A stretch of 64,000 bases of DNA, from assembly GCA_029974635.1 (NCBI GenBank), contig JARKQY010000021.1, positions 1 through 64,000 on the forward strand, read 5' to 3'. Below the pieces are notes generated by a model. The model did not search any database, had not been told where the DNA came from, and saw only the letters and a program-made list of their open reading frames with translations. Source of the DNA: Bacillota bacterium. Lineage in GTDB: Bacteria > Bacillota > UBA4882 > UBA8346. The translations under genes were made by a program, and so were the position numbers. Below are positions 41,288 through 62,593 of the stretch, one piece after another. Positions within the stretch are counted from its first letter, which is position 1. Every line of letters starts with the position of its first letter.

Positions 41288-41358
41288 CGTTAACATTAAC
41301 GAAAATTATTCCTATGAAAGTCAAATGGATTGCTTTTGAATTGTGTAAACGTTATAAT
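41288..41358 (+). promoter_or_regulatory. Promoter with LacI/CcpA-like operators before the CBM-only gene
   Basis: TTGCTT (41330-41335), 17 bases, then TATAAT (41353-41358). TGTAAACGTTATAA (41343-41356) lies between and over the -10 box and matches the CcpA cre consensus at 13 of 14 positions. A perfect 14-bp dyad CGTTAACATTAACG (41288-41301) lies upstream. Sugar-responsive repression is likely. Confidence 0.6.
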
Positions 41359-41473: not shown

Positions 41474-42016
41474 TTGTTGAAAAAAATCTTTACGTTATTG
41501 GCAATCATTGCTTTGGTTGTAGTACCGGTTTGTTCCGCGGCTGAAATAGCCGAGAGCGAACAGGTTAAGAACGGAACGTTCGATACTAATTATGCTCCTT
41601 GGGATTTTATGATCGAGGCCGGTGGCGATGCCAATGCATCCGTTGTGAATGGTGAGTTAAAAATCCATGTGGCGAGTATTGGAAAGGAATACTGGAGTGT
41701 CCGGATCACCCACGAGAAGATCCAGTATGTAAAAGGGCAGACTTATGTTGTCAAGTTTGACGCCCGTTCTACAACACCCGGAACGATTGCTTTAGTGGCC
41801 GAAGCCAATTTTGAACCCTGGAACAACACTTATCTCAGGGTGCTAGATGTCGCGCTCACCGATAAGATGGCTACCTATACTTATGAATTTACCATGAAAA
41901 ATCCGCGTGACAACAGAGCCCGTCTGGTGTTTTGCTTTGGAAAATGCGATGAAAATAGTCCCAAGGGAGAACATGATATCTATCTGGATAATATCAGCTT
42001 AACAGTGAAAAAGTAA
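41474..42016 (+). CDS. Secreted stand-alone CBM4_9-like carbohydrate-binding protein
   Basis: A signal peptide (about 1-23, ending CSAAE) is followed by one binding module of about 150 residues and nothing else. Shared features with the modules on the GH18 and GH16 enzymes are VKNGTFDTNYAPW at the start, YVVKFDARSTTPG, TYTYEFTM and a final IYLDNISLTVKK. No catalytic domain is present. It could coat glucan or chitin, act as a cell-surface or released lectin, or help enzymes bind. TTG 41474 (or 41477) has GGGGAG upstream. Confidence 0.85.
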   Translation: MLKKIFTLLAIIALVVVPVCSAAEIAESEQVKNGTFDTNYAPWDFMIEAGGDANASVVNGELKIHVASIGKEYWSVRITHEKIQYVKGQTYVVKFDARSTTPGTIALVAEANFEPWNNTYLRVLDVALTDKMATYTYEFTMKNPRDNRARLVFCFGKCDENSPKGEHDIYLDNISLTVKK

Positions 42017-43150: not shown

Positions 43151-43200
43151 TTGACAACACTTTGGTGGTATAATATAATAAACTTATAAAAACGTTTACA
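43151..43200 (+). promoter_or_regulatory. Sigma-A promoter and operator of the first lacI-type gene
   Basis: A consensus TTGACA (43151-43156), 17-bp spacer and TATAAT (43174-43179) are followed by AAAAACGTTTACA (43188-43200), a LacI/CcpA-type half-palindrome with central CG placed at the transcription start. The position fits autorepression. Confidence 0.75.
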
Positions 43201-43213
43201 TTGAGGGGTCCAA

Positions 43214-44224
43214 ATGGCGCTTACCATTAAAGACGTGGCAAAAAAGGCCGGGGTATCCATCGCCACTGTTTCCAGAGTGTTGAACAACAAGGATCGGGTG
43301 AAGGATGAAACCCGGGAAAAAATTATGGCCATTGTTAATGAAATGAATTATGTCACCAATTTTTCCGCCAAAACGTTGCGCCAGAATAAATCGAATGTTA
43401 TCGGAGTCATTGTGCAAGGGGTATCCATTTCATTTTACGCGGAAATTGTCAAAGGAATTGAAAATAAGGCCAATGAATACGATCTCAGGTTAATCGTCTG
43501 TGATTCCGAGAATAGTGTTGAAAAAGAAAAAGATTTTGTAAGATTTTTATATGATCGCAGTGTCGACGGTATGATATTTATTGTTCCCCAAATGCCCTCT
43601 GAAGATATTGTCAAGATACATCAAGATAACTATCCCATCGTAGTCTTTGGCAGCAACATGCAAGAATATAATATTCCTTCCATTACCGTTGATAACCGGC
43701 TGGGGGCCATTCTGGCCGTCCGGCATTTATATTCCCACGGTTTCACAAAAATCGCTTTCATTGGCAGTATCGAAGATGAACATAATAGCGACCGCCGTGA
43801 AAGATTGCAAGGCTACCGGGATGCTTTGAAGGAGTGTCAACTCGAGCTATTACCCGAATACATTGAAAACGGGTTGTATTACGAAGAGACCGCCAGTGGG
43901 GCTTTTATCCGTCTGATGAAACTTCCCAACCCGCCGGATGCCGTCTTTTGTGGTAACGACGAAATGGCTTTGGGAGTGCTCAAAACTGCCAAGAAGATGG
44001 GCATTAGCATACCCGAACAAATTGGCTTGGTGGGATTTGATAACATTCGGATCTGCCAATATACCAGCCCGGCATTGACCACTATCAATCAGCCAACCCA
44101 TAATATCGGTGTTTTGTGTTGTGAAAAGTTGATATACAGTCTCAATGACAAAGGAAAGGATGCTAAGTATACCAATTTGGTTTTACAGCCGGAGTTAATT
44201 ATCCGTGAATCGTGTGGTTGTTGA
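43214..44224 (+). CDS. LacI/GalR family transcriptional regulator
   Basis: 336 residues. The N-terminal helix-turn-helix (1-55, TIKDVAKKAGVSIATVSRVLNNKDRV) and hinge helix are followed by a periplasmic-binding-like sugar domain ending LIIRESCGC. The sugar ligand is not readable but is presumably a glucan breakdown product. A strong promoter with an overlapping AACGTT operator lies upstream, so autorepression is likely. The downstream GH30 and GH81 genes, which have similar CG-centred operators, are the probable regulon. A second regulator at 60.9 kb is a paralogue with an extra domain. Confidence 0.93.
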   Translation: MALTIKDVAKKAGVSIATVSRVLNNKDRVKDETREKIMAIVNEMNYVTNFSAKTLRQNKSNVIGVIVQGVSISFYAEIVKGIENKANEYDLRLIVCDSENSVEKEKDFVRFLYDRSVDGMIFIVPQMPSEDIVKIHQDNYPIVVFGSNMQEYNIPSITVDNRLGAILAVRHLYSHGFTKIAFIGSIEDEHNSDRRERLQGYRDALKECQLELLPEYIENGLYYEETASGAFIRLMKLPNPPDAVFCGNDEMALGVLKTAKKMGISIPEQIGLVGFDNIRICQYTSPALTTINQPTHNIGVLCCEKLIYSLNDKGKDAKYTNLVLQPELIIRESCGC

Positions 44225-44360: not shown

Positions 44361-44410
44361 TAAAAACGATTTTATACATAATTTAAAACATATTGCTGTT
44401 GACGTCAACA
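44361..44410 (+). promoter_or_regulatory. Operator candidates before the GH30 gene
   Basis: AAAAACGATTTTAT (44362-44375) resembles the LacI-type sites at 43188 and 62581. TGTTGACGTCAACA (44397-44410) is a perfect 14-bp palindrome. Both lie within about 100 bases of the start codon. Confidence 0.55.
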
Positions 44411-48484: not shown

Positions 48485-49390
48485 TTACTGATGGCAACAA
48501 TTGGAGTATTTATCGGTTTGCTCCTTACGGTATTGGGTAGGGCTTTTACCTTCCAACCGGGTGAATAAAGTTTCGAAATATTTATCGGTATTAAAACCAC
48601 ATTTATAACTGATCTCCTTAACGGTTTTACTGGTGTAAAACAACAATTCCTTCGCTTTTTCCATCCGGCAATTAATCTGATATTGAATGGGAGTCTGCCC
48701 GAGATACTTTTTAAATAACTTGGTAAAAAACCCAACACTCATATCATAGCCGGCGGCAATATCTGAAACATAAAGTTGTAGCCGAAAATTTTGACGAATG
48801 TATTCTTCAGCCTGTTTAATATTGGTAAAGTACTTGCTGTCCGGATCATTGTGATTTACTGACGGAGGGACGGCGGTTTCCAATAATAGCCGAATAATGC
48901 GCAACAAGCTAATTTTGGCATCCAATTTATACAAATCGCTTTTATGTAAGAAGTTGCCGTAAAAATTTGAAAATAGGGTATTGAATTCGCTACCATCCAA
49001 AGGGTGGTGGATTTGGGGCAATCTAAATTCAGGAATAATTTCCATCATTCTACATCCAACATTGTTATGAATTTCTAGTTGAACCGGATAGTCATTTTCC
49101 AAACCCGGCGAGTAAATCGGAGCAAAGAGGATGATGACTGAACTGTATCGAGCAATCCCTTGAATCGCTGTACCCGGAGTATTAAATATAATATCACCTT
49201 CGCGGACGTCGATAATCTTTCCGTTTAATACCATACCGCCTTCCCCATAGTTGATATATTCCAATTCGTAAGTATAAACGGTCCTTGGTTGATACTTGAA
49301 ACCTTTTTCGAATTTTAAACTGATAGCGTTATGAAAACAATGAATGACATAGGGGTTTAATTTTTGTAAAAATGAAATATTTAGTGACAT
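48485..49390 (-). CDS. AraC family transcriptional regulator, first of three paralogues
   Basis: 301 residues with an N-terminal cupin-like sensor domain (about 25-130, GEGGMVLNGKIIDVREGDIIFNTPGT) and a C-terminal pair of helix-turn-helix motifs (about 195-295, LYVSDIAAGYDMSVGFFTKLFKKYLGQTPIQYQINCRMEKAKELL). The other two paralogues lie at 52.4 and 53.4 kb, and all three open with LNPYVI-CFHN. They flank GH16 genes, so they should respond to glucan sugars. The 3' end is 169 bases from the convergent GH81 stop. Confidence 0.92.
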   Translation of the reverse strand: MSLNISFLQKLNPYVIHCFHNAISLKFEKGFKYQPRTVYTYELEYINYGEGGMVLNGKIIDVREGDIIFNTPGTAIQGIARYSSVIILFAPIYSPGLENDYPVQLEIHNNVGCRMMEIIPEFRLPQIHHPLDGSEFNTLFSNFYGNFLHKSDLYKLDAKISLLRIIRLLLETAVPPSVNHNDPDSKYFTNIKQAEEYIRQNFRLQLYVSDIAAGYDMSVGFFTKLFKKYLGQTPIQYQINCRMEKAKELLFYTSKTVKEISYKCGFNTDKYFETLFTRLEGKSPTQYRKEQTDKYSNCCHQ

Positions 49391-49934
49391 TGTTCACCAC
49401 GCCTCCTAAATTATTTTTATGATGGTGTACAACATGAAGCGATATTGATTGTTAATTATAAATTTTACAAGCACTTTTAAGGAATTTTAAACACATTAGT
49501 AAAAAAACCATTTGTAGCTATTATATAATTTTTTTAGCAATTTTTCGTGGTTTGTAGTGAGATGAATTGAATTCTTAAGAATAAAATAGAATTGTAGGTA
49601 TCAATGTTTGCGTTTATCATAAAAATTAAAAATAATGGAGTTAATACTATGTTTTATGGAATTGTTGAAATCGATAAATAGTGTTAGCATTTAAATGTAA
49701 ACATATTATTAAAAGTAAACCTGAAAATCCGGTTTGAAAACGTGTCCGCTTCGTCACCGTCAACGATTAGAATCATTAGATTCGTTGACCGGTGAATCAT
49801 GTTTTGGAATGGGGGTGAATGATGGGGAATGATTGTCTTTTAACCTGGAGGAATCTGACTATAGGTTGAATCGAGGGTTAAAGCATCATCTATTATGGAA
49901 TTGAAGTTAAGTTAAAAAGGAGGAGGGTTTTATT
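49391..49934. promoter_or_regulatory. 544-bp divergent regulatory region between araC-like and GH16 genes
   Basis: On the araC side, GTAGC (49514-49518) and TTAGC (49534-49538) flank TATTATATAATTTT. This closely resembles the block before the third AraC gene. On the GH16 side a 13-bp hairpin (TCACCGTCAACGA 49754-49766 with its partner 49782-49795, one bulge) lies in the leader. A half-site GAAAACG is near 49736. AGGAGGAGGG (49919-49928) is the GH16 ribosome site. Confidence 0.5.
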
Positions 49935-52292
49935 TTGAGTACAAAACTGGCAAAAGTTAGATGCTTAGTTATCATCGGTTTACTGGTTTTAGGTCTCAAT
50001 TGGGGATCACTACCGGAATCAGCGGGGGTTGTAAATGCCGCCTATGATCCCAGCATAGGCTGGAACCTGGTTTGGTCCGATGAATTTAACGGTACGGCGG
50101 TAGATGCCGCCAAATGGAGTTTTGATATCGGTGACGGGTCACAATACGGTCTCGCGGGGTGGGGAAACAGTGAACTACAGTATTACCGCTCAGAGAATGC
50201 AACCGTATCAGGCGGTTACCTTAATATCAACATTAAGCGCGAGTCTTTCGGAGGAAAAGAATTTACCTCTGCCAGAATGTATACACAAGGTAAGTTTGAC
50301 TGCCTTTATGGAAAGATCGCGGCCCGGATCAAAATGCCCTACGGGTATGGCATGTGGCCCGCCTTTTGGATGCTGGGGCGAGATTTTGATCGTCATAATT
50401 GGCCGGCTGTAGGCGAGATCGATATAACCGAAATGCGAGGCGGCGATGGTAGTACCGGTGACTTTACCACGATGTCCACCATGCATTGGGACCATAACGG
50501 CAGTTATGCTATGTATGGGCAATCATATACTAATACGGAGGCTTTAAGCCAGGACTTTCATATCTATGAAGTCGAATGGACCCCGTACTATCTTTATGGC
50601 AAAATCGACGGAATCAAATATTACGAAATGGACTTTTATTATGCTGATCCGAAACCGCTTAATGAATTCCATTTCCCATTCTTTCTTATTTTGAACTGTG
50701 CGGTGGGCGGGACATTCTGGAACCCGGCCATCGCCAATCCCGGTCAAGTAACCGCGCCGCTCCCACAGGCGATGCAGGTGGACTGGGTTAGAGTTTATAA
50801 AAACGATACTTCCGCTCCGGTAACCTGGACGCCTATTCCGGCGAACGATTTACAGATATTCAGTGAGACTCACACCGGGAATGATGTATTTTCGGTAGAC
50901 CGGACCACACTTGATACCTGGGCAGAGACTTGCACAATTACTGAAGATACCTTGTGTTCCGAAGGTTCCAAGGGATGGAAAGTCACCGTTGGATCCGTTG
51001 GTTGGATGGGCTTCGGCGTATCGTCGCTTTACGGGAACGATTTAACCGGGTACACCAATAGCGCTCTCAAGTTTGACATTCGAACCACATCCACCAAACA
51101 ATATAAAGTCGGCATCAAAACCAGTTCGGTTTTGGAATGCTGGGTGAATTTGGATTCCTCCGTAGGATATGTCGCGGATGGGAATTGGCATACCGTAACG
51201 ATTCCAATCAGCAGGTATATTTCGATTCAACCGTATTTGGATTTCAAATACGTTAACCAGTATTTCATGCTTGCTTCGGTTGGCGCCAGCCAAAGTGGAG
51301 ATGTAATTTACATTGATAATGTATATTGGGAAAAGACTGGTTCAGGCGGTCCAACAGTGACACCAACTCCGACTGGAGCGGCAACAGCTACACCGACTCC
51401 CGGCGGCAATCCGACATCGACTTCAACGCCGACCCCTACTTCCAGTGAAAGCACTCCAACCCCTACCCCTACTCCCAGTGGAGGTTACAGCCAGGGTGTT
51501 GAGAACAGTGATATAAACTCAGTATTGATATGGTTCAAACCGGATGGTTTCAATTCCGCTTATGTGGATATTCATTATAAGGTCAATAACGGTTTACAAT
51601 TAAATTACCGCATGACCAACAATAGCAGCACAGGTAGGTGGGAACAGACTATATCGGATTTAACATCCGGAAGTACGATTGATTATAATTTTACATACGA
51701 GAAGAATGGTTTTCAATATGACTCGCCCTGGTACAGTTATACTTTCAATACTACTGCTACTCCGACCCCAACTCCTACCGCTACTCCGACCCCAACCGTG
51801 GCGTCAACGCCGACTCCGGGAGGGACTTTGTCAAGCGCCACTTGGTATTTATTCAACCAAACGGTAAGCGGTGTTACTCCGGCAGGCGAGAATATGCAGA
51901 CCACCAAGAGCGCTATTACCGGTTGGCAGCCGATAAAGACGATTACTACGACTTCGGCTTACTGGTACAGTACAACGGTTAATGGAACATATAATTCCGG
52001 AGCATATACCTTGGTACTTTGGACCAACAATCCCGGTTCCTCGTCCCAGGTTAAGGTGGATATTTACAAGGTCAATTCCGACGGCGGCGGGGCTACCTTA
52101 ATCGCTTCTCAAACCCAGGAAGCCGGCACTTCTTCAACAGGAAATCATGCGACCACTTATACCTTCAGTGGTATTGGCGCTGTAGCGTTCAGTAATCAAC
52201 GTTTGATGGTCAAGATCACCAAGACTTCCGGTGTGGACTGTACCATGGTCTATAATACCAATGATTTTCCAACCCGATTGATTACCCCTTAA
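49935..52292 (+). CDS. Secreted GH16 beta-glucanase with CBM56 and two linkers
   Basis: 785 residues. The signal peptide covers about 1-36. GH16 (about 38-295) has Glu161, Asp163 and Glu166 in GEIDITE. An unrecognised beta-rich domain (about 304-462) follows, then a Thr-Pro linker. A CBM56-like beta-1,3-glucan-binding domain (about 517-607, VLIWFKPDGFNSAYVDIHYKV, YNFTYEKNG) and a second Thr-Pro linker come next. The C-terminal beta domain (about 633-785) I do not recognise. TTG 49935 has AGGAGGAGGG upstream. A divergent AraC gene lies beyond a 544-bp gap and a terminator follows. Confidence 0.92.
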   Translation: MSTKLAKVRCLVIIGLLVLGLNWGSLPESAGVVNAAYDPSIGWNLVWSDEFNGTAVDAAKWSFDIGDGSQYGLAGWGNSELQYYRSENATVSGGYLNINIKRESFGGKEFTSARMYTQGKFDCLYGKIAARIKMPYGYGMWPAFWMLGRDFDRHNWPAVGEIDITEMRGGDGSTGDFTTMSTMHWDHNGSYAMYGQSYTNTEALSQDFHIYEVEWTPYYLYGKIDGIKYYEMDFYYADPKPLNEFHFPFFLILNCAVGGTFWNPAIANPGQVTAPLPQAMQVDWVRVYKNDTSAPVTWTPIPANDLQIFSETHTGNDVFSVDRTTLDTWAETCTITEDTLCSEGSKGWKVTVGSVGWMGFGVSSLYGNDLTGYTNSALKFDIRTTSTKQYKVGIKTSSVLECWVNLDSSVGYVADGNWHTVTIPISRYISIQPYLDFKYVNQYFMLASVGASQSGDVIYIDNVYWEKTGSGGPTVTPTPTGAATATPTPGGNPTSTSTPTPTSSESTPTPTPTPSGGYSQGVENSDINSVLIWFKPDGFNSAYVDIHYKVNNGLQLNYRMTNNSSTGRWEQTISDLTSGSTIDYNFTYEKNGFQYDSPWYSYTFNTTATPTPTPTATPTPTVASTPTPGGTLSSATWYLFNQTVSGVTPAGENMQTTKSAITGWQPIKTITTTSAYWYSTTVNGTYNSGAYTLVLWTNNPGSSSQVKVDIYKVNSDGGGATLIASQTQEAGTSSTGNHATTYTFSGIGAVAFSNQRLMVKITKTSGVDCTMVYNTNDFPTRLITP

Positions 52293-52302
52293 TAGTATAA
52301 AA

Positions 52303-52341
52303 AGAGGGGCTGTCCCGGAAATAAACCGGGCAGCCCCTTTA
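52303..52341 (+). terminator. Terminator after the modular GH16 gene
   Basis: AGGGGCTGTCCCGG (52305-52318) with CCGGGCAGCCCCT (52326-52338), one mismatch, then TTTAAT. Confidence 0.85.
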
Positions 52342-52391
52342 ATCTGGCAAAAAGAATACTATTCACTGATCGCTGGGATTGTAAAATAGAA

Positions 52392-53303
52392 TTACGATTT
52401 ACAGTATGTAAAATACTTATCTGTTAACTCCTTCCGGTATTGACTGGGACTTTTTCCTTCATATTTGGTAAATAAGGTTTCAAAATATGTATCACTATTA
52501 AAACCACATTCATAACTGATTTCTTTTACTGTTTTACTGGTATGAAAGAGCAGTTCTTTTGCTTTTTCAAGACGGCAGTTAATTTGATACTGGATTGGTG
52601 TCTGTTTAAGATATTTTTTAAATAGCTTGGTAAAGAATCCGGCGCTCATATTGAACATTCCGGCAAGATCCGGAACATAAAGCTTTAATCTGTAATTCCA
52701 ACGGATGTATTCCTCGGCTTGCATAATCTCGGCATAATATTTCAGATGGGGATCATCCTGGTTGACGACTTGAGTATCCGCTGCCTCGGATAATAATGTG
52801 ATGATTCGTAACATGTTTATTTTGGTTTGTAATTCATAAGACTTGTTTTTGTGAATGAAATGATAATAAGTGTTTAAAAACAAAGTGTTATATTCATTAG
52901 AGTTTAGCGGATGATAGATTTGCGGCAGAATAAATTCAGGGTATGCTTCCATCATTTTATATTCTTTGCCCTCGTTAAGGTGAATCTCAAGAGTGTCGGG
53001 GTAATCCTGGGCCAGGTTCGGAGAATAGAAAGGGGCAAAGAAGATAATGATTGAGCTGTATTTGGCAACTCCTTGGACGGTGGTTCCCGGGGCTTTAAAA
53101 ATGATATCGCCTTCCCGGATATCCACCATTTGGCCGTTGATAACCATGCCTCCTTCACCGTAATTAATGTACTCCAGTTCGTAAGAAAAAGCAACCCGCG
53201 GAAAGTATTTAAAGCCTTTCTCATATTGCAGACTGGTGGGATTATGAAAACAATATATGATGTAAGGATTCAACCGTAATAAACAAGAGCGGGTTAGATC
53301 CAA
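52392..53303 (-). CDS. AraC family transcriptional regulator, second paralogue
   Basis: 303 residues: a cupin-like sensor (GEGGMVINGQMVDIREGDIIFKAPGT) and a C-terminal AraC double helix-turn-helix (NMSAGFFTKLFKKYLKQTPIQYQINCRLEKAKELL). The start is taken as TTG 53303, preceded by GAGAGGTGA. This gives an N terminus (about 10 residues before LNPYII) equal to its paralogues; an upstream reading from 53351 or 53399 would add residues they lack. It lies 138 bases after the third AraC gene in the same direction, with its own -10 box TATAAT. Confidence 0.9.
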   Translation of the reverse strand: MDLTRSCLLRLNPYIIYCFHNPTSLQYEKGFKYFPRVAFSYELEYINYGEGGMVINGQMVDIREGDIIFKAPGTTVQGVAKYSSIIIFFAPFYSPNLAQDYPDTLEIHLNEGKEYKMMEAYPEFILPQIYHPLNSNEYNTLFLNTYYHFIHKNKSYELQTKINMLRIITLLSEAADTQVVNQDDPHLKYYAEIMQAEEYIRWNYRLKLYVPDLAGMFNMSAGFFTKLFKKYLKQTPIQYQINCRLEKAKELLFHTSKTVKEISYECGFNSDTYFETLFTKYEGKSPSQYRKELTDKYFTYCKS

Positions 53304-53369
53304 AAAGGTCACCTCTCTATCCAAAAGTATTGTTGGTATAATCGCGTGCATATATAGCTCCCTATAATT

Positions 53370-53399
53370 ATTATACCGCGTTTTGGCATTTTTGACCAA
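53370..53399 (-). promoter_or_regulatory. Promoter of the second araC-like gene
   Basis: On the minus strand TTGGTC (53399-53394), an 18-bp spacer and TATAAT (53375-53370) precede the coding start by about 70 bases. Confidence 0.55.
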
Positions 53400-53441
53400 A
53401 ATAATTACCGGATGTTTTAAGCCGTGATTCCGGAAAGATAT

Positions 53442-54326
53442 TTATGCCATACGATCCGTAGCTTTTTTCGGTTCTCTGCGGTACCTGGTAGGAGTTCTTC
53501 CCTCAATTTTGGTGAATAAGGTTTCGAAATAAGTATCGCTGTTGAAACCGCAATCCAAACTTATTTGTTTAACGGTTTTACTGGTGTGGATAAGTAATTC
53601 CCTGGCTTTTTCCAACCGGCAGTTGTTTTGATATTCAATGGGCGTTTGTTTGAGATATTTTTTAAATAATTTATTAAAGAATCCCACACTCATATTAAAC
53701 ATAGCAGCTATATCCGGTGTATATAGTTTCAGCCGGCAATTTTCCCGGATATATTTTTCTGCTTGCATAATCTCATCATGATACTTTAGCCGGGTATCAT
53801 TTTTATTGATGGGCTTTGCAGACATATCTTCGGTCAGCATCGTAATAATTCGTAATACATTGGTCTTGGTATGCAATTGATGGAATTTGGTTTTATGTAA
53901 AAAGCTTTTGTAAGTGCTAAAGAAAAGAACGTTTAAATCGCTATTATTGAGGGGATGGTATAAATCAGGCAAAATAAAGCGGGGGTCGTAGTCAATCTTT
54001 TTAAAATTATTTTCGAGAGTATCCGGATAATCAAGTTGTTCCAGGAGCGGATCGTAAAACGGAGTAAAACAGATAATTACCGAGCTGTATTTAGCGACTC
54101 CCTGAACCAAAGTCCCCGGCTGTTTAAAAATAATGTCTCCTTCCTGAATGCCGAAAGTCTTTCCGTTGAGACTCATTTCGCTTTTGCCGAAATTAACATA
54201 TTCAAGCTCATAAGCAGAAGTAATTCGCGGTTTGTATTTAAAGCCTTTATCAAATTGTAAACTGGTGGCATTATGAAAACAAAAGATAACATACGGGTTA
54301 AGATTCAGCAAGAATTGCTTATCCAC
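53442..54326 (-). CDS. AraC family transcriptional regulator, third paralogue
   Basis: 294 residues with the same plan: LNPYVIFCFHNATSLQFDKG at the N terminus, a cupin-like sensor (GKSEMSLNGKTFGIQEGDIIFKQPGT) and two helix-turn-helix motifs near 190-285. GGGGGTGA precedes the start. Between this gene and the GH16 gene at 54.6 kb lie two GTAACA boxes (TTGTTAC on the coding strand) two helical turns apart. They could serve as its own binding site. Confidence 0.92.
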   Translation of the reverse strand: MDKQFLLNLNPYVIFCFHNATSLQFDKGFKYKPRITSAYELEYVNFGKSEMSLNGKTFGIQEGDIIFKQPGTLVQGVAKYSSVIICFTPFYDPLLEQLDYPDTLENNFKKIDYDPRFILPDLYHPLNNSDLNVLFFSTYKSFLHKTKFHQLHTKTNVLRIITMLTEDMSAKPINKNDTRLKYHDEIMQAEKYIRENCRLKLYTPDIAAMFNMSVGFFNKLFKKYLKQTPIEYQNNCRLEKARELLIHTSKTVKQISLDCGFNSDTYFETLFTKIEGRTPTRYRREPKKATDRMA

Positions 54327-54620: not shown

Positions 54621-55859
54621 ATGGTGAAGCGTTTATATCTATTATTCATATTGGCATTATGTGCGGCGATAGGGATATTGGTTCCCGTCCATGCCGCAAC
54701 ATGGATATTAGTCTGGAATGACGAGTTTAGCGGTTCTTCCATCGACAGAGCCAATTGGAACTTTGAAACCGGACCGTCGGACAGTTGGAATAGCGGCGAA
54801 TTGGATTACTGCACTAACGGAGCCAATGTCCGGATTCAAGATGGGGTACTGGTTATTGAAGCACGCCAGGAAAACGTAGGAGGCATGAATTATACTTCGG
54901 CCCGTATCAATACCAAGGGTAAGCGCGAGTTTACATATGGAAAAATCGAAGCCCGGATTGCGATTCCCACCGGTAAAGGGTTATGGCCGCAATTTTGGAT
55001 GCTTGGCGCTAATTATCCGGGTATGGCTTGGCCTGGCTGCGGTGAGATCGATATTATGAGCCACACCAATACCGATCGGTTGAATTACGGATCGATATAT
55101 TGGGATAATAATGGTTGCCAATCATATGGAGCGAATGTAAGAGTTTCCAATATCACCTCGTATCATGTTTATAGTATTGAATGGAGTCCTGCCACCATAA
55201 AGTGGTTTGTAGACGGGATTCAATACTGTGAAGGGAGTTTATTGGATGACGCCGCTGGTATGGAAGAGTTTCAAAAACCTTTCTTTATTGTATTAAATTT
55301 AGCCGTGGGAGGTAATTGGGCGGGGTCTCCGGATGCCAAAACTGTGTTTCCGGCTAAAATGTTAGTTGACTACATCCGGGTTTATCAGGATGAAGCCAGT
55401 ATCAAGCCAACATCCTCCCCTACACCATTGCCCGCTTCTCCTACACCTAAACCTACAATCACGATTTTGGCGGTAACCGGTAAAGGAATACCTGGGAAAA
55501 TTGAGGCGGAAAATTATGATGACATGTCCGGTATTCAAACGGAAGCTTGCTCGGAAGGCGGGTTGAATGTCGTTATACGGGAAAAAGGCGGTTGGATGGA
55601 TTATCATGTAAGAGTCCGTACGACAGGGAGTTATCAGGTTTCATATCGTGTGGCAAGTCCCTCGGGAACCGGTCAGATTCAACTTTTAGCGAATTCCGAC
55701 CTTTTGGCTACTTCCACAATACCGAATACCGGAGGTTGGCAAAGCTGGATTACGGTAAAAGCAACGGTAAATTTAAAGGAAGGGACCCAAACTTTACGGT
55801 TATATGCCCGTTGGGGCGGTTTTAATATCAATTGGATCACTTTTGAACAGCGCAAATGA
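54621..55859 (+). CDS. Secreted GH16-like protein with CBM6, acid/base residue missing
   Basis: 412 residues with a signal peptide (1-25). A GH16 domain (about 27-262) has nucleophile Glu142 and Asp144 conserved in GEIDIM, but residue 147 is Ser (codon AGC) where GH16 enzymes have the acid/base Glu. A Pro-Thr linker leads to a CBM6 (about 292-412, KIEAENYDDMSGIQTEACSE). With the general acid gone, normal hydrolysis should be strongly reduced. It may act as a binder, inhibitor sink or sensor, or use another residue. ATG 54621 has GGGGAG 12 bases upstream. A strong terminator follows. Confidence 0.88.
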   Translation: MVKRLYLLFILALCAAIGILVPVHAATWILVWNDEFSGSSIDRANWNFETGPSDSWNSGELDYCTNGANVRIQDGVLVIEARQENVGGMNYTSARINTKGKREFTYGKIEARIAIPTGKGLWPQFWMLGANYPGMAWPGCGEIDIMSHTNTDRLNYGSIYWDNNGCQSYGANVRVSNITSYHVYSIEWSPATIKWFVDGIQYCEGSLLDDAAGMEEFQKPFFIVLNLAVGGNWAGSPDAKTVFPAKMLVDYIRVYQDEASIKPTSSPTPLPASPTPKPTITILAVTGKGIPGKIEAENYDDMSGIQTEACSEGGLNVVIREKGGWMDYHVRVRTTGSYQVSYRVASPSGTGQIQLLANSDLLATSTIPNTGGWQSWITVKATVNLKEGTQTLRLYARWGGFNINWITFEQRK

Positions 55860-55898
55860 GCTTTTGCTGAAATAATAGGATCTCCAGGCCAGAAAGAT

Positions 55899-55927
55899 TA
55901 CCGCTTAAATTCGTTAAGCGGTTTTTT
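55899..55927 (+). terminator. Terminator after the GH16-CBM6 gene
   Basis: CCGCTTAA (55901-55908), loop ATTCG, TTAAGCGG (55914-55921), then TTTTTTATATTT. Confidence 0.85.
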
Positions 55928-56142
55928 ATATTTATGCTCACCTTTTATTACCTTTATATAAAGGATAATTTAAAGCTGATGAATTCAATTTGAATAAAAA
56001 CTTTAGCTTAATATCCAAAGTAAGTCCGAAAGCGGGGTGAAAAACATTCATATTTAGCTGAACACATCGTTTTTCCGTTCGAATTATTTTCATAAATATT
56101 TTATTAAAAAAACTGATAATTAAGTGTAGTATAAAAAAAAAG

Positions 56143-56200
56143 TTAAGTAAAATACGACTTTTTTGTATTGTTACTATTTTGTTACGATGTTAAACTTAAA
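56143..56200 (+). promoter_or_regulatory. Conserved upstream block with TTGTTAC direct repeats (GH16, 56.3 kb)
   Basis: TTAAGTAAAATA (56143-56154) is followed by two TTGTTAC words (56168-56174 and 56179-56185), 11 bp apart. The whole block is about 85 percent identical by eye to 57392-57449 before the next GH16 gene. One helical turn between direct repeats fits an AraC-type monomer site. Confidence 0.6.
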
Positions 56201-56318
56201 TTATGGGATATTCCAAAATATAGAAGAAAGGGGTGTATAGAAGCTGTTATATTAAAGAAGTCTCAGTCTAGTAATCATCGAAAAACAGATTATTCAATGA
56301 GAGTAAAGGAGGTCTAGA

Positions 56319-57095
56319 ATGATGAACAGAAAATATTTGTTTTTGATCTTGGTGTTTGTAATGGTTTTGGGGATGATAGGGCTCCCTACAGTTCATGCTG
56401 ATTATACGCTGGTTTGGAGCGATGAATTCGACGGTTCAGCGGTGAACACCAACAACTGGACCTTTGAAACCGGCGGTGGCGGCTGGGGAAATAATGAATT
56501 ACAATACTACAAAGCAAATAATGCGACCGTTTCAGGGGGGGTCCTCACCATAACCGCCAAGAGGGAAAGCTATGGCGGTTATGCCTACACTTCCGCCCGT
56601 TTGAAGACACAAAATAAAAGAACATGGACTTACGGTAGAGTGATAGCCCGCCTAAAGGTGCCGAAAGGCCAGGGATTATGGCCGGCCTTCTGGATGCTCG
56701 GCAACAATATCAGCAGCGTAAGTTGGCCGAGATGCGGCGAGATCGATATTATGGAGCATGTAAACACGGATGATCTTTGTTATGGGACCATACACTGGGA
56801 TTGCAACGGTTATGCAAATTACGGCGGCAGCAGACTGGTTTTAAATCATGTGGACACATGGAACAACTACAGAATCGATTGGACTCCTTCCTACATCCGC
56901 TGGTTCGTCAACGGCAATCAATATTGGGAAGCCAATATCGCCAATAGCATCAACAGCACCGAGGAATTTCACCGGCCGTTCTTTATCTTGTTGAACCTGG
57001 CCGTAGGCGGCAACTGGCCGGGCAGCCCCAATTCCAGCACACCCTTCCCGGCGAAATATCAAATTGACTATGTCCGGGTTTATCAGCAGAATTAA
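56319..57095 (+). CDS. Secreted single-domain GH16 beta-glucanase
   Basis: 258 residues: a signal peptide (1-27, ending TVHADY) and a GH16 domain with Glu141, Asp143 and Glu146 in GEIDIME. It has no binding module. Protein and DNA are very close to the next two GH16 genes, including identical runs of about 50-65 bases, so they arose by tandem duplication or exchange sequence. ATG 56319 (or 56322) follows AAAGGAGGTC. Substrate is probably laminarin-type or mixed-linkage beta-glucan. A hairpin terminator follows. Confidence 0.92.
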   Translation: MMNRKYLFLILVFVMVLGMIGLPTVHADYTLVWSDEFDGSAVNTNNWTFETGGGGWGNNELQYYKANNATVSGGVLTITAKRESYGGYAYTSARLKTQNKRTWTYGRVIARLKVPKGQGLWPAFWMLGNNISSVSWPRCGEIDIMEHVNTDDLCYGTIHWDCNGYANYGGSRLVLNHVDTWNNYRIDWTPSYIRWFVNGNQYWEANIANSINSTEEFHRPFFILLNLAVGGNWPGSPNSSTPFPAKYQIDYVRVYQQN

Positions 57096-57132
57096 ATCTA
57101 ATAATTAAGTAATATTAAGTAATAAAAGCGGT

Positions 57133-57180
57133 AAACGGTGTGAAATAGCATAATTAGGTGTTTCACACCGTTTTGATTTT
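57133..57180 (+). terminator. Terminator after the single-domain GH16 gene
   Basis: AAACGGTGTGAAA (57133-57145) pairs perfectly with TTTCACACCGTTT (57161-57173), then TGATTTT. Confidence 0.8.
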
Positions 57181-57391
57181 CGGCCGCAGGCACTAAAGGC
57201 TGATGCAAGCCTCCTGTTTTACAGGCGATCTTGACTGAATACAGAAGGAATTTTTGTTTATGCCGCAAGATTCTTCCTTCGATGCGAGTTTTTTTGCCGG
57301 CGATTCTTTTTTGCGGGGTTGAACAATTCGGAACGTTTTCTTAAGTATTTTGTCCATAAATTTATTAATTAAGTTTGGCGAAAAAGAATAA

Positions 57392-57449
57392 TTAAGTAAA
57401 ATATATTTTTTTTGTATTGTTACCATTTTGTTACGATGTTAAAATTATA
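57392..57449 (+). promoter_or_regulatory. Conserved upstream block with TTGTTAC direct repeats (GH16, 57.6 kb)
   Basis: Second copy of the block: TTAAGTAAAATA (57392-57403) and TTGTTAC at 57417-57423 and 57428-57434. The gap from 57180 to 57391 shows no gene. Confidence 0.6.
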
Positions 57450-57620
57450 TTAATGACAAGCTAAAAAATATGATTCATAGTAATAGTTATGTATTATGTA
57501 TTCCTCAATATAACATTGTTTTTTACAGTATGAGAAAAAGGGGGTGATATGTAAAGTTAATACGGGTTTCGGTTCAGAAGCTATAGAAAACACTTTGTTC
57601 TATTTGATGAAGGAGGGAAA

Positions 57621-58982
57621 ATGTTGAAAAGAAAGTATTTGTTTTTAGTTTTAGCGTTTGTAATGATTATCGGTATGTTAAGTATTCCTACCGCTCATGG
57701 CGCTTACACACTGGTTTGGAGCGATGAATTTGACGGTTCATCGTTAAACACCTCTAACTGGACTTGTGAAATCGGCGGCGGCGGTTGGGGAAATAACGAA
57801 TTACAATACTACAGGGCTGAAAACGCTACCGTATCGGGAGGCGTTCTCACCATAACCGCCAAGAGGGAAAGCTATGGCGGTTATGCCTACACTTCAGCTC
57901 GTCTAAAGACACAAAACAAACGGACATGGACTTATGGTAGAGTGGAAGCCCGCCTGTTGGTGCCGAAAGGCCAGGGATTATGGCCGGCCTTCTGGATGCT
58001 CGGCAACAATATCAGCAGCGTAAGCTGGCCCGCATGTGGTGAAATCGACATTATGGAACACGTAAATACGAATGACACTTTAATTGGCACCATACACTGG
58101 GATTCTGGCGGTCATGCCTATTACGGCGGCGAGACAGGGGTTTCCAATATGGCCACATGGCATGTCTACAGTGTTGAATGGACTCCGTCTTATATTCGCT
58201 GGTTCGTTGACGGCCGTCAATATTGGGAAGCCAATATCGCCAACAGCATCAACAGCACCGAGGAATTCCACCGGCCGTTCTTTATCTTACTGAACCTGGC
58301 CGTGGGCGGTAACTGGCCGGGCAGCCCTAATTCCGGCACACCTTTCCCGGCGGAATACAAAATCGATTATGTCCGGGTTTATCAGGATGGCGGTGGCGGC
58401 GGCAACCCGACCCCGACACCCCAGCCCCCGCCGTCAAATGGCGTCACCTTCTATCAGGATATTAATTACGGCGGAACAGCCAGAACATTGGGCGCCGGCA
58501 ACTACACCCTGTCCCAGTTGAATGCTGCGGGGATCCCCAATGACTGGATGTCTTCATTACGAGTTCCCAGCGGTTATACGGTTGTAGTTTACGAGCATGA
58601 TAATTTTGCCGGAAATACCTGGACCTTTACAGCGGATACTTCTTTTGTAGGATCGGCTTGTAATGACAAAATGTCATCCTGTAGAATTACTACGGGTGGC
58701 GGTTCGGGAAGCGGGTATACATATGGCGTGACCAACGTCAGTTCGAACCAGGCCAGGTTCTGGTTCAAACCCAGCGGCTGGACGTCAGGTTATGTGATCC
58801 TGCACTATACCATGTCCGGGGCGGGGCAACAAAACGTGAACATGACCTATAACAGCGGTGCGGGACAATGGGAATACACAGCCGGTGGTTTGGTCTCCGG
58901 AAGATCAATTACCTATAATTTCACTTATAATCGGGACGGATTGCAATATGATAGCCCGAATGCAACGTGGACTAAGCCCTGA
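57621..58982 (+). CDS. Secreted GH16 beta-glucanase with crystallin-like and CBM56 domains
   Basis: 453 residues: a signal peptide (1-27), GH16 with Glu141, Asp143 and Glu146, a Pro-Thr linker, a beta/gamma-crystallin-like domain (about 273-356, FYQDINYGG, VVVYEHDNFAG) and a C-terminal CBM56 (about 366-453, RFWFKPSGWTSGYVILHYTM). The crystallin-like domain may bind calcium or stabilise the enzyme outside the cell. ATG 57621 follows AAGGAGGGAAA. The GH16 part is nearly the same as in the genes on both sides, while the C terminus differs, so accessory domains were swapped after duplication. Confidence 0.92.
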   Translation: MLKRKYLFLVLAFVMIIGMLSIPTAHGAYTLVWSDEFDGSSLNTSNWTCEIGGGGWGNNELQYYRAENATVSGGVLTITAKRESYGGYAYTSARLKTQNKRTWTYGRVEARLLVPKGQGLWPAFWMLGNNISSVSWPACGEIDIMEHVNTNDTLIGTIHWDSGGHAYYGGETGVSNMATWHVYSVEWTPSYIRWFVDGRQYWEANIANSINSTEEFHRPFFILLNLAVGGNWPGSPNSGTPFPAEYKIDYVRVYQDGGGGGNPTPTPQPPPSNGVTFYQDINYGGTARTLGAGNYTLSQLNAAGIPNDWMSSLRVPSGYTVVVYEHDNFAGNTWTFTADTSFVGSACNDKMSSCRITTGGGSGSGYTYGVTNVSSNQARFWFKPSGWTSGYVILHYTMSGAGQQNVNMTYNSGAGQWEYTAGGLVSGRSITYNFTYNRDGLQYDSPNATWTKP

Positions 58983-59022
58983 ACTGTTGCAGTTAATGGG
59001 CTAGAAAACGAATAAGCGAAAA

Positions 59023-59065
59023 AGCGGTGTGGAATGCAAATTAGGCGTTCCGCACCGTTTTTTTA
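59023..59065 (+). terminator. Terminator after the GH16-crystallin-CBM56 gene
   Basis: CGGTGTGGAA (59025-59034) with TTCCGCACCG (59048-59057), one wobble, then TTTTTTT. Confidence 0.85.
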
Positions 59066-59264
59066 TGTTTTATCCAGAAAGATTATAATTCGATGATAAA
59101 ACCGCAAAAGAATCGGTTCATCCAGCTAGAGCGATTTTCTCATCGGTTTATTCCCGTTAAAATCCGTCTCTTACTTTAAGGAAAATGGAAAATGATAAAA
59201 ATGGATGAAAATCTACGAAAAATAAAGCTAATTCATTCGATCGTCAAATTGGCATCGTTTCCAA

Positions 59265-59339
59265 AAACATTACGGAAATGTTAACAAGTTTTTATAAAAT
59301 GGTTAAAGACTTTATAATAAAGTAAGAAAACGATTTTTG
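59265..59339 (+). promoter_or_regulatory. Promoter region and LacI-like operator before the third clustered GH16
   Basis: An AACATT/AATGTT dyad (59265-59283) is followed by a -10 box TATAAT (59313-59318) and GAAAACGATTTTTG (59326-59339), which lies just after the -10 box as a repressor site would. The part of the gap before and after holds no gene. Confidence 0.55.
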
Positions 59340-59487
59340 TGAATAGGGAATAAAATATCGGCAGTTGAGAAAGGAGGCTGAAACAGCGCTTTCAATTGTT
59401 TTAGTAAGTATTGGTGTTGTTATTTTTCGGAGATAAATTTGTAACATTAGACATTACACCTTGACATTTAATGAAGGAGGAGAAAAG

Positions 59488-60675
59488 ATGTTTCGCGGAA
59501 AAATTTTTTTGTTGGTATTGATCACTGTATTGACACTGGGGTTATTGGGAATTCCTACTGCGCACGGCGCTTACACGTTGGTTTGGAGCGATGAATTTGA
59601 CGGCTCAGCGGTGAATACCGCTAACTGGACCTTTGAAACCGGTGGTGGCGGCTGGGGAAATAACGAATTACAATATTATAGGGCTGAAAACGCTACCGTG
59701 TCGGGCGGCGTTCTCACTATTACTGCTAAAAAGGAAAATTATGGAGGGTACGCTTACACTTCCGCCCGTTTGAAGACACAAAATAAAAGGACATGGACTT
59801 ACGGGAGAATAGAAGCCCGCCTTCAGGTCCCCCAGGGACAGGGATACTGGCCGGCTTTTTGGATGCTCGGCAATAATTTCAGCAGTGTGGGTTGGCCGGC
59901 ATGTGGCGAAATCGATATTATGGAATGTGTAAACACTACCAGCACATGTGTGGGTACCATACATTGGAATAGTGGCGGCCATGTTTCCTATGGCGGCAGC
60001 CGGGGTGTTTCCGGTATGACGGGATGGCACACCTACAGCATCGAATGGACTCCTTCCAGTATAAAATGGTTTGTGGACGGGGTTCAATACCATGAGGCCA
60101 ATATCGCCAACAGCATCAACAGTACCGAAGAATTTCACCGTCCGTTCTTCCTGATCTTGAATTTCGCCGTGGGCGGTAACTGGCCCGGCAGTCCCAGTTC
60201 CAGCACGGTATTCCCGGCAGCATATAAAATCGACTATGTCCGGGTATATCAAGATAATGGCGGAACTCCCACCCCGCCTCCATCGGGTGGAACCGTCAGT
60301 ATTAGATGCAGTGCAAATAATTTGTATGCTTCCGCCGACCTTAATGTTGGGAATTATGTAATCGGAAACCGTTCTTCGGTTAGTACTTGGGAACAGTTCA
60401 CCCAGGTAACCAATTCCGATGGAACCGTATCGTTCAGAGCAAGTGCGAACGGTATGTATGTATCGGCTGATACCAATCTGGGCGGAAGATTGATAGCCAA
60501 CCGCTCATCCATCGGCACCTGGGAGAAATTCCGCAAAATTAACAACAGCAATGGCACGGTTTCTCTCCAGGCACTTTCAAATAACATGTATGTATGCTGC
60601 GACCTTAATGAAAGTGCTTATTTGATAGCCAACCGGTCATCCGCCGGCACTTGGGAACAGTTTACCATTCGATAA
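59488..60675 (+). CDS. Secreted GH16 beta-glucanase with fascin-like beta-trefoil
   Basis: 395 residues: a signal peptide (1-26, ending AHGAY), GH16 with Glu141, Asp143 and Glu146 in GEIDIMECVN, a short Pro linker, then a C-terminal domain (about 267-395) made of three similar repeats. Each holds a TVSxR/L, N-YxSADxN and IxNRSSxxTWEQF pattern, as in fascin-like trefoils that bind carbohydrate or protein. ATG 59488 follows GAAGGAGGAG; a frame from 59461 adds nine residues without a site. It is the third of the closely related GH16 copies. Confidence 0.92.
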   Translation: MFRGKIFLLVLITVLTLGLLGIPTAHGAYTLVWSDEFDGSAVNTANWTFETGGGGWGNNELQYYRAENATVSGGVLTITAKKENYGGYAYTSARLKTQNKRTWTYGRIEARLQVPQGQGYWPAFWMLGNNFSSVGWPACGEIDIMECVNTTSTCVGTIHWNSGGHVSYGGSRGVSGMTGWHTYSIEWTPSSIKWFVDGVQYHEANIANSINSTEEFHRPFFLILNFAVGGNWPGSPSSSTVFPAAYKIDYVRVYQDNGGTPTPPPSGGTVSIRCSANNLYASADLNVGNYVIGNRSSVSTWEQFTQVTNSDGTVSFRASANGMYVSADTNLGGRLIANRSSIGTWEKFRKINNSNGTVSLQALSNNMYVCCDLNESAYLIANRSSAGTWEQFTIR

Positions 60676-60892: not shown

Positions 60893-62338
60893 ATGAGCCG
60901 TACCATTAAGGATGTTGCTAGAAAAGCCCGGGTTTCCATTACTACGGTTTCACGAGTGGTGAATAACCAGGGACCGGTCACGCCGGAGACCCGTGAGAAA
61001 GTTTTGGCGGCAATTGAAGCTTTGGAATATACGCCCAACTTTACCGCAAAGCGGATGCGGAATAGCGATCTCAAAACTATCGGGGTGGTTGTGCCTGATA
61101 TTTCTGATCTGTATTACAGTGGATTTGTCAATGGAATCCAGGAAAAAGCCAACGAAACCGACTGCCGTTTAATTATTTGCTGTTCTCGAAACAACATTGG
61201 CAAAGAACGTGATTATGTCAAATATTTATATAATGGCAGTGTGGATGGGCTGATTTTTATCTCGCCCTGTATTTCGGTTGCGGAAATTAATACAATCACT
61301 GCCAAGCAGTCTGTGGTTGTTTGCGGAAACAACTTGCAGCTTGATAATGTTCAGTCCATTATTTCGGACAATGTATCCGGAGGGTATCAAGCCGTAAAGC
61401 ATTTTCATACGCATCAAATAAAAAAAATCGCCTATATCGGCGGGGTAGCGCAGGAACGGGATTACACGCACTGGGAAAGATTATCAGGATATCAAAAAGG
61501 AATGGCCGAGTGTGGCTTGGAAATAATGGCAGGGTATATTGAAAATGGTTATTATACGAAAGATGGCGGCGAATATGCTTTTACCAGGTTGATGAATCTT
61601 AGGGAACCTCCGGAAGCAGTTTTTTGCATCAACGATAAAGTTGCTTCCGGAGTTATAAAAGCAGCCCGGAAAGCAGGAATCAAAGTTCCGGAAGAACTGA
61701 AATTAATTGGTTTCGACAATACTGCAATCTGTGAATATACTACTCCGACCTTGACCAGTCTCGATCCATCGACCTATCAGATCGGGACCTTGTTGTTTGA
61801 GAAATTGATGACCAGTTTGAACCAGCCGGAATCCCGGATTAAGAATGAGATTCAGGTTATTTATCCCAGATTAGTTATCCGGGAGTCTTGCGGCTGTGTA
61901 CAGAATACACAACCTGAGCCCGTTATCGACCTGGATTCCAACCGAATCATCATCAATGATAACATTACCGGCGATGGCAATTACCAGTTTGAATATTGCG
62001 GGATGTGGAACTATAGCGTTGATCCGGAAGCGTATCAGGAAGATAATCATTGGTCATTCATTCCGGAAAGTTATTGTTTGATGCGTTTCTATGGCACTCA
62101 ACTCAGATTATACGCAGCCCGGGACCCCCGCCACGGGATGGCGGCGATTTCCGTCGATGGCGGGGAAGAGGTTCTGATTGATTGTTTCGGGGCGAAAAGA
62201 GAGAATAATGTGATACTATATACAAGTCCCGAGTTGCCTCAGGGTGATCATTTATTAAAAATCAGGGTCACCGGACAGAAAAGTCCGGAGTCTTACGGAA
62301 CTTCCATCTCCATCGACAAGGTGGAAGTTATTATATAG
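60893..62338 (+). CDS. LacI family regulator fused to a C-terminal glycan-binding-like domain
   Basis: 481 residues. Residues 1-335 form an ordinary LacI protein: helix-turn-helix (TIKDVARKARVSITTVSRVVNNQG), sugar domain, and the same ending LVIRESCGC at which its paralogue at 43.2 kb stops. A further 146 residues continue in frame (about 336-481). This extra beta-rich part resembles the beta-sandwich carbohydrate-binding modules of glycosidases (YQFEYCGMWNYS, MRFYGTQLRLYAARD, ISVDGGEEVLIDC, GDHLLKIRVTG). The protein has no signal peptide. ATG 60893 has GTGATG-type weak site upstream. Its target is probably the enzyme gene downstream and itself. Confidence 0.88.
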   Translation: MSRTIKDVARKARVSITTVSRVVNNQGPVTPETREKVLAAIEALEYTPNFTAKRMRNSDLKTIGVVVPDISDLYYSGFVNGIQEKANETDCRLIICCSRNNIGKERDYVKYLYNGSVDGLIFISPCISVAEINTITAKQSVVVCGNNLQLDNVQSIISDNVSGGYQAVKHFHTHQIKKIAYIGGVAQERDYTHWERLSGYQKGMAECGLEIMAGYIENGYYTKDGGEYAFTRLMNLREPPEAVFCINDKVASGVIKAARKAGIKVPEELKLIGFDNTAICEYTTPTLTSLDPSTYQIGTLLFEKLMTSLNQPESRIKNEIQVIYPRLVIRESCGCVQNTQPEPVIDLDSNRIIINDNITGDGNYQFEYCGMWNYSVDPEAYQEDNHWSFIPESYCLMRFYGTQLRLYAARDPRHGMAAISVDGGEEVLIDCFGAKRENNVILYTSPELPQGDHLLKIRVTGQKSPESYGTSISIDKVEVII

Positions 62339-62479
62339 TAAAAATAGTTACTCGTTTTCAAGGTATCTGGCTATTTAGTAATTAAAAAATTGCGGTTCAT
62401 GGTTTAAAATATTGCTTAATATAGAGGTACCATAAGTAATCATTCGTAATATAGAGATGATTTGATTCAACGGCAAAAT

Positions 62480-62593
62480 GTTAACGTTTTTTTATTTTTT
62501 TAAGGGCCATTCACTGGCTTTGGTAAAATCGCGAAAGCATCTATAATAAAAGGCAGAGGATGAATCTTTTAAGTATTATTGAAAACGTTTTTA
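62480..62593 (+). promoter_or_regulatory. Promoter with two LacI/CcpA-like operators before the last gene
   Basis: TTGGTA (62520-62525), a 16-bp spacer and TATAAT (62542-62547) are flanked by TTAACGTTTTT (62481-62491) upstream and GAAAACGTTTTTA (62581-62593) downstream. The second site matches the cre consensus at 13 of 14 positions from 62580. The rest of this 469-bp gap shows no gene. Confidence 0.6.

Follow-up and report, generated by a model that had tools for sequence, protein, structure and literature searches.

Few switches have been studied as well as the LacI regulators, whose domain layout has been regarded as fixed. Carbohydrate-binding modules (CBMs), in turn, control polysaccharide-degrading genes as parts of the RsgI-type anti-sigma factors of Clostridium thermocellum, in which the module is extracellular and belongs to a membrane protein that holds the sigma factor. 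A survey that covered 272 genomes and 1281 LacI regulons termed the domain structure of the LacI family rigid (PMC4052901). In the case of GlyR3 of C. thermocellum, laminaribiose frees the regulator from an operator similar to the CcpA consensus (PMC5483248). CcpA and PurR, the nearest solved relatives of the protein described here, consist along their whole length of a helix-turn-helix (HTH) domain and a periplasmic-binding-protein-like core (CcpA 1rzr, E-value 2e-54).

The window, i.e. the 64,000-nucleotide stretch of Bacillota DNA that was analysed, is contained in the 83.8 kb contig C18, which extends past it, and includes an uninterrupted reading frame of 481 codons, here called T1, that, like GlyR3, adjoins beta-glucanase genes. 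The HTH domain of the encoded protein scored 67.9 bits against a cut-off of 27 and the effector domain 110.2 (PF13377) and 76.9 (PF00532) bits, each above cut-off, as expected of the LacI/GalR family. In comparison to an untailed paralogue in the window, T1 continues for 146 residues after the motif RESCGC; the positions of both frames, the end of the paralogue at this motif and the length of the extension had been given exactly in an earlier note made from the sequence alone. Other close untailed relatives also end within two residues of RESCGC (two on contig C48, others in the genomes G104, G022, G023 and G012), and among the 38 matched LacI-type sequences of solved structure none covers the tail, the matches stopping at residue 340 or earlier. 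T1 is a variant of the LacI/GalR family, and departs from the common, non-defining layout that ends at the effector domain, termed rigid in the survey (PMC4052901), by 146 further residues that are predicted to form a separate folded module. Since neither a signal peptide nor a membrane segment is evident in T1, the cytoplasmic location assumed in the earlier note is reasonable, and in contrast to RsgI the module would be carried by a presumably cytoplasmic DNA-binding repressor. Features of the locus are collected in Table 1.

Table 1. Position of T1, its domains, its paralogues and operator-like sites (window positions, unless a contig is named).
Feature	Position	Strand	Evidence
T1, LacI-family regulator with C-terminal module, 481 aa	60893..62338	+	ORF (ATG start); Pfam LacI 67.9 bits, Peripla_BP_3 110.2 bits, both above cut-off
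T1 LacI HTH DNA-binding domain, residues 4-49	60902..61039	+	PF00356, E 6.7e-19
T1 effector-binding (periplasmic-binding-protein-like) core, ~residues 62-333	61076..61891	+	PF00532/PF13377
RESCGC motif, T1 residues 330-335, end point of untailed paralogues	61880..61897	+	alignment
13-residue linker VQNTQPEPVIDLD, differs among the three copies	61898..61936	+	alignment
CBM-like beta-sandwich module, T1 residues 349-481	61937..62335	+	AlphaFold2 pLDDT 96.4, pTM 0.89; PDB fold matches 3nqh, 7ehg; 44 homologous modules; tree nesting
Untailed LacI paralogue (comparison), 336 aa, ends RESCGC	43214..44224	+	ORF, alignment
T2, tailed LacI protein, 486 aa	G000:C18:68869-70329		same contig, beyond window
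T3, tailed LacI protein, 482 aa	G000:C18:70407-71855		same contig, beyond window
Operator-like site TGTAAACGTTATAA upstream of gene at 41474	41344..41357	.	motif scan
Operator-like site TAAAAACGTTTACA, 27 nt upstream of untailed LacI gene	43187..43200	.	motif scan
Operator-like site TAAAAACGATTTTA upstream of GH30 gene	44361..44374	.	motif scan
Operator-like site TGAAAACGTGTCCG upstream of GH16-like gene	49735..49748	.	motif scan
Operator-like site TGTTAACGTTTTTT between T1 and GH88 gene	62479..62492	.	motif scan
Operator-like site TGAAAACGTTTTTA, 228 nt upstream of GH88 gene after T1	62580..62593	.	motif scan
Operator-like sites outside window	C18 66909 and 72098		motif scan

Another set of LacI-type proteins was observed on contig C24 of the same genome (G000:C24, ~113.2-124.1 kb, minus strand; L076:748-11559), where four consecutive proteins of 821-830 aa contain a LacI-type effector domain without HTH that closes with a SCGC-like motif; behind it come a helical region and a C-terminus like that of histidine kinases. 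These may be cytoplasmic sugar-sensing kinases; as in T1, a domain is added after a SCGC-type end, but the HTH is absent and the fusion partner is kinase-like.

The tail was modelled with AlphaFold2 from an alignment of 47 homologous modules as an all-strand domain with high confidence (pLDDT 96.4, pTM 0.89), which rules out a disordered extension. Its best Foldseek matches in PDB were parts of carbohydrate-active proteins. The C-terminal domain of glycosyl hydrolase BT_2959 (3nqh) was matched by both fold (E-value 5e-7) and sequence profile (1.6e-8), although this domain is part of a glycosyl hydrolase and the entry title names no binding function. The xanthan-binding module MiXBM (7ehg; E-value 5e-6, TM 0.65-0.71) is, like the T1 tail, a stand-alone beta-sandwich of similar fold (~135 residues), but it is only 13-15% identical to the tail, is absent from the sequence-profile matches of the module up to an E-value of 10, and belongs to a secreted enzyme. 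Xanthan-binding modules of Microbacterium XT11 have been assigned to CBM84 in a review (PMC10881899). Further matches were exo-beta-1,3-galactanase, xanthan lyase, CE2 esterases, CBM36, CBM35 and CBM6, and the folds of the named families CBM6, 35, 36 and 84 were matched with Foldseek E-values of 5e-6 to about 1e-3. By sequence models, no Pfam or NCBIfam family was assigned to the tail above cut-off, nor did the tail match these four families in Pfam, the libraries used not modelling every named family. The CE2 N-terminal domain (PF17996) remained below its cut-off in the tail (15.1 versus 27.9 bits) and matched 20 of the 47 modules at an E-value ≤0.01 (best 5e-7). A filamin match in PDB (E-value 1.1) was discarded as chance. 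The model of full-length T1, built from 15 sequences of which three cover the tail, was poor over the tail and does not give its placement on the core.

Homologous modules, 44 in number, align with the tail over the whole module at 23-48% identity and occur nearly all within large secreted-type proteins. The closest (48%) is in a GH59-like protein with SLH repeats, followed by a GH2-like protein of an uncultured Eubacterium (41-43%), and two tandem modules of about 25-30% identity are found in a secreted GH32-like protein of the same genome as T1 (G000:C5, L009:6971-9427); others are in GH16-like enzymes and one protease-like protein. These enzyme names are readings of the sequences, Pfam having been run on the neighbours in the T1 genome alone. 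Modules were present in 38 of 300 genomes from the order of genome G241, mostly within long frames. By sequence comparison, the tail is homologous to a beta-sandwich module of secreted glycosidases in Bacillota. The likeness to such modules noticed earlier was thus confirmed in homologues and predicted fold alike, and the structure prediction and fold search suggested in the earlier note returned an ordered domain with carbohydrate-active relatives.

A search for other tailed LacI proteins, also suggested there, gave two more on the same contig (T2 and T3), whose tails are 61-64% identical to that of T1, in frame and with the same junction, the three cores being 62-66% identical to one another. 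Synonymous divergence among the copies is saturated or nearly so, dN is 0.23-0.25 in the core and 0.24-0.26 in the tail, and omega, where computable, is about 0.11 in both; as dN and omega are equal, purifying selection constrains the tail to the same degree as the core. In the LacI core tree, T1-T3 formed one group (100/100) next to untailed paralogues of their own genome and of G104 (fork supports 82-91), and in the module tree the three tails likewise formed one group (100/100), nested in the main clade of secreted modules (99/99). Because both trees group the three copies, the sequences are most simply explained by a single fusion with later duplication. The GH32-like modules of the same genome were excluded as the source of the tail, as they are located in a different clade of the module tree. 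Among about 745 Bacillota genomes (29 being the whole class as sampled), queried with the tail, the full protein or a junction-spanning profile, the fusion was not found elsewhere; a profile of LacI residues 270-336 plus the tail crossed the junction only in the three proteins of this genome, all its other matches being tail-only or core-only. No further LacI fusion with the tail was obtained in a contig scan by two short peptide patterns or, going by annotation, among plasmid matches.

Of the 138 residues that the three tails have at module positions with ≥70% conservation among the secreted modules, 111 (80%) are unchanged, including W372, H386, D422, D430, R436, H453 and D475. To our knowledge, no sugar-binding residue has been described for this module family, and the kept residues may therefore be structural. 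Five of the six invariant positions (F399, G401, G415, D422, Y432 and H453) are kept in T1-T3. The exception is Y432, which is Tyr in 44/44 secreted modules and Phe in 3/3 tails, and on account of this replacement the ligand of the tail may have changed relative to the secreted modules. Several further changes are tail-specific, e.g. R351, N373, R413 and K435. The three tails contain three, three and one Cys residues, versus a mean of 0.5 in the secreted modules, 33 of 44 of which have none; the Cys-richer tails would fit a reducing cytoplasm. In the core, positions (near-)invariant in untailed relatives are altered in all tailed proteins, among others E77 to G, E249 to K, R278 to A/T/S, G175 to Q/R and L55 to M, the last close to the hinge helix. 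Positions 249 and 278 flank the inducer-contacting residues of Escherichia coli LacI (there N246 and D274), and the effector may for this reason differ in the tailed proteins. In the alignment, the T1 core keeps R196, N247-D248 and D275, presumably the sugar-contacting positions by analogy with LacI, and T2 is without R196.

All three tailed genes are located among polysaccharide-degrading genes, Pfam families of the neighbours in this genome being GH16, GH30, GH81, GH88, GH26, GH3 and GH5. Upstream of T1, the window includes GH18-like, several GH16-like, GH30 and GH81 genes, the untailed LacI gene and three AraC-type regulators; downstream follow GH88, a BNR_4 protein, another GH16, T2, T3, two GH26, ABC permeases and GH3. 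The cluster looks like one for utilisation of beta-1,3-glucan and mixed polysaccharides, with the exact substrates inferred. On contig C48, the two closely related untailed paralogues stand beside ABC importers and GH5 in similar loci with no tail.

The GH88-family and BNR_4 proteins beside T1 (C18 62808-66572; L008:2809-6573) both end in DUF7910/FRG1-like (fascin-like) modules, which resemble the C-terminus of the GH16-like protein at 59461-60675. This protein closes a row of four GH16-like genes (window 54621-60675) with similar N-terminal halves and different C-terminal modules, as if the latter had been swapped after duplication. The three AraC-type regulators (48485-49390, 52392-53399 and 53442-54326, minus strand) are mutually similar, with a GH16-like gene interleaved (window 48485-54326).

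Proteins of the LacI/GalR family recognise palindromic operators and are switched by a sugar. Intergenic LacI/CcpA-like palindromes resembling TGWAAACGTTTWCA, a motif chosen on the locus of T1 itself, numbered eight in the CAZyme region versus 1.2 expected from dinucleotide shuffles (maximum five in 200 shuffles). They are placed upstream of CAZyme and regulator genes, one of them before the gene at 41474, which we read as CBM4-like, and also occur near the C48 regulators; the site at C18 66907-66924 is a perfect palindrome of 18 bp. Given this choice of motif and its similarity to the consensus of CcpA sites (TGNAANCGNWNNCW, as cited in PMC5483248), the candidate sites are not assignable to one particular LacI protein.

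Taken as a whole, a CBM-like beta-sandwich module of a secreted glycosidase would have been captured once, in frame just after RESCGC, by a LacI-type repressor of the beta-glucan and mixed polysaccharide cluster, and the fused gene would then have been copied and three copies retained under selection. As in other LacI regulators, an imported oligosaccharide is probably the effector of the HTH and LacI core, with the TGWAAACGTTTWCA-like operators as the probable binding sites, so that the LacI part would repress the genes of the cluster until released by that oligosaccharide, as GlyR3 is by laminaribiose. The tail would constitute a second domain in contact with glycan inside the cytoplasm; it would read the oligosaccharides brought by the ABC importers and tilt the response in favour of longer, or of certain, degradation products. 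We give this putative role, a second glycan contact conferring a preference for chain length or composition, about an even chance. The earlier note had likewise envisaged a second sugar-binding site for oligosaccharide chain length or polymer ends, which may hold true. The main rival is that the tail has lost sugar binding and serves as a protein-protein or oligomerisation element, assembling LacI dimers into tetramers, forming mixed oligomers of the paralogues, or contacting another partner. In LacI, a C-terminal helix joins dimers into tetramers, and the tail is likewise at the extreme C-terminus; the loss of Y432 together with the tail-specific residues, and the presence of three paralogues with similar tail sequence at one location, also speak for such an element. 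On the other hand, no partner was identified, the conserved module positions are mostly kept, and the fold relatives handle carbohydrate, so that this rival, while deserving attention, appears rather unlikely.

The fusion is known from one genome only and thus cannot be essential to such regulation, and the relatives do without a tail. This would agree with a passive tail of no specific role, be it a stabiliser of the protein or a product of chance fixation. A useless tail, however, should decay or vanish, whereas three copies persist with saturated dS and a tail constrained to the level of the core, and we regard a passive tail as improbable. It is still harder to believe that the tail, homologous as it is to modules of glycosidases broadly like those encoded nearby, binds the glycan motif of the enzymes merely to concentrate oligosaccharide near the repressor in a non-allosteric manner, as a few repressor molecules would hold little sugar. 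Finally, in a fragmented genome of 88% completeness, a frame error or misassembly could have fused a LacI gene to a glycosidase fragment; the sequencing error joining two frames that the earlier note had considered was nevertheless not borne out, since one in-frame junction is common to three diverged paralogues under selection, and the probability of an artefact is negligible.

With the tail as a second glycan contact, it is conceivable, and proposed here tentatively, that two sugar-reading domains are combined in a one-component repressor, the LacI pocket taking a small sugar and the tail a chain from the same polysaccharide that is longer or differs in chemistry, and that the three paralogues act as two-input gates for different polysaccharides. 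No published LacI-CBM fusion was found in the open-access literature, in which, as in the sampled genomes, coverage is incomplete and unannotated earlier cases may exist. If the two-domain reading is true, T1-T3 would, as far as we know, be the first cytoplasmic transcription factors that sense via the carbohydrate-binding module of an enzyme. The selected and triplicated fusion to a CBM-like module of an enzyme shows that the LacI layout is extendable, and T1-T3 provide a concrete case of how a cell might gauge the chain length or composition of a polymer in its cytoplasm; as a building block, the tail could moreover find use in oligosaccharide biosensors constructed on a LacI frame.
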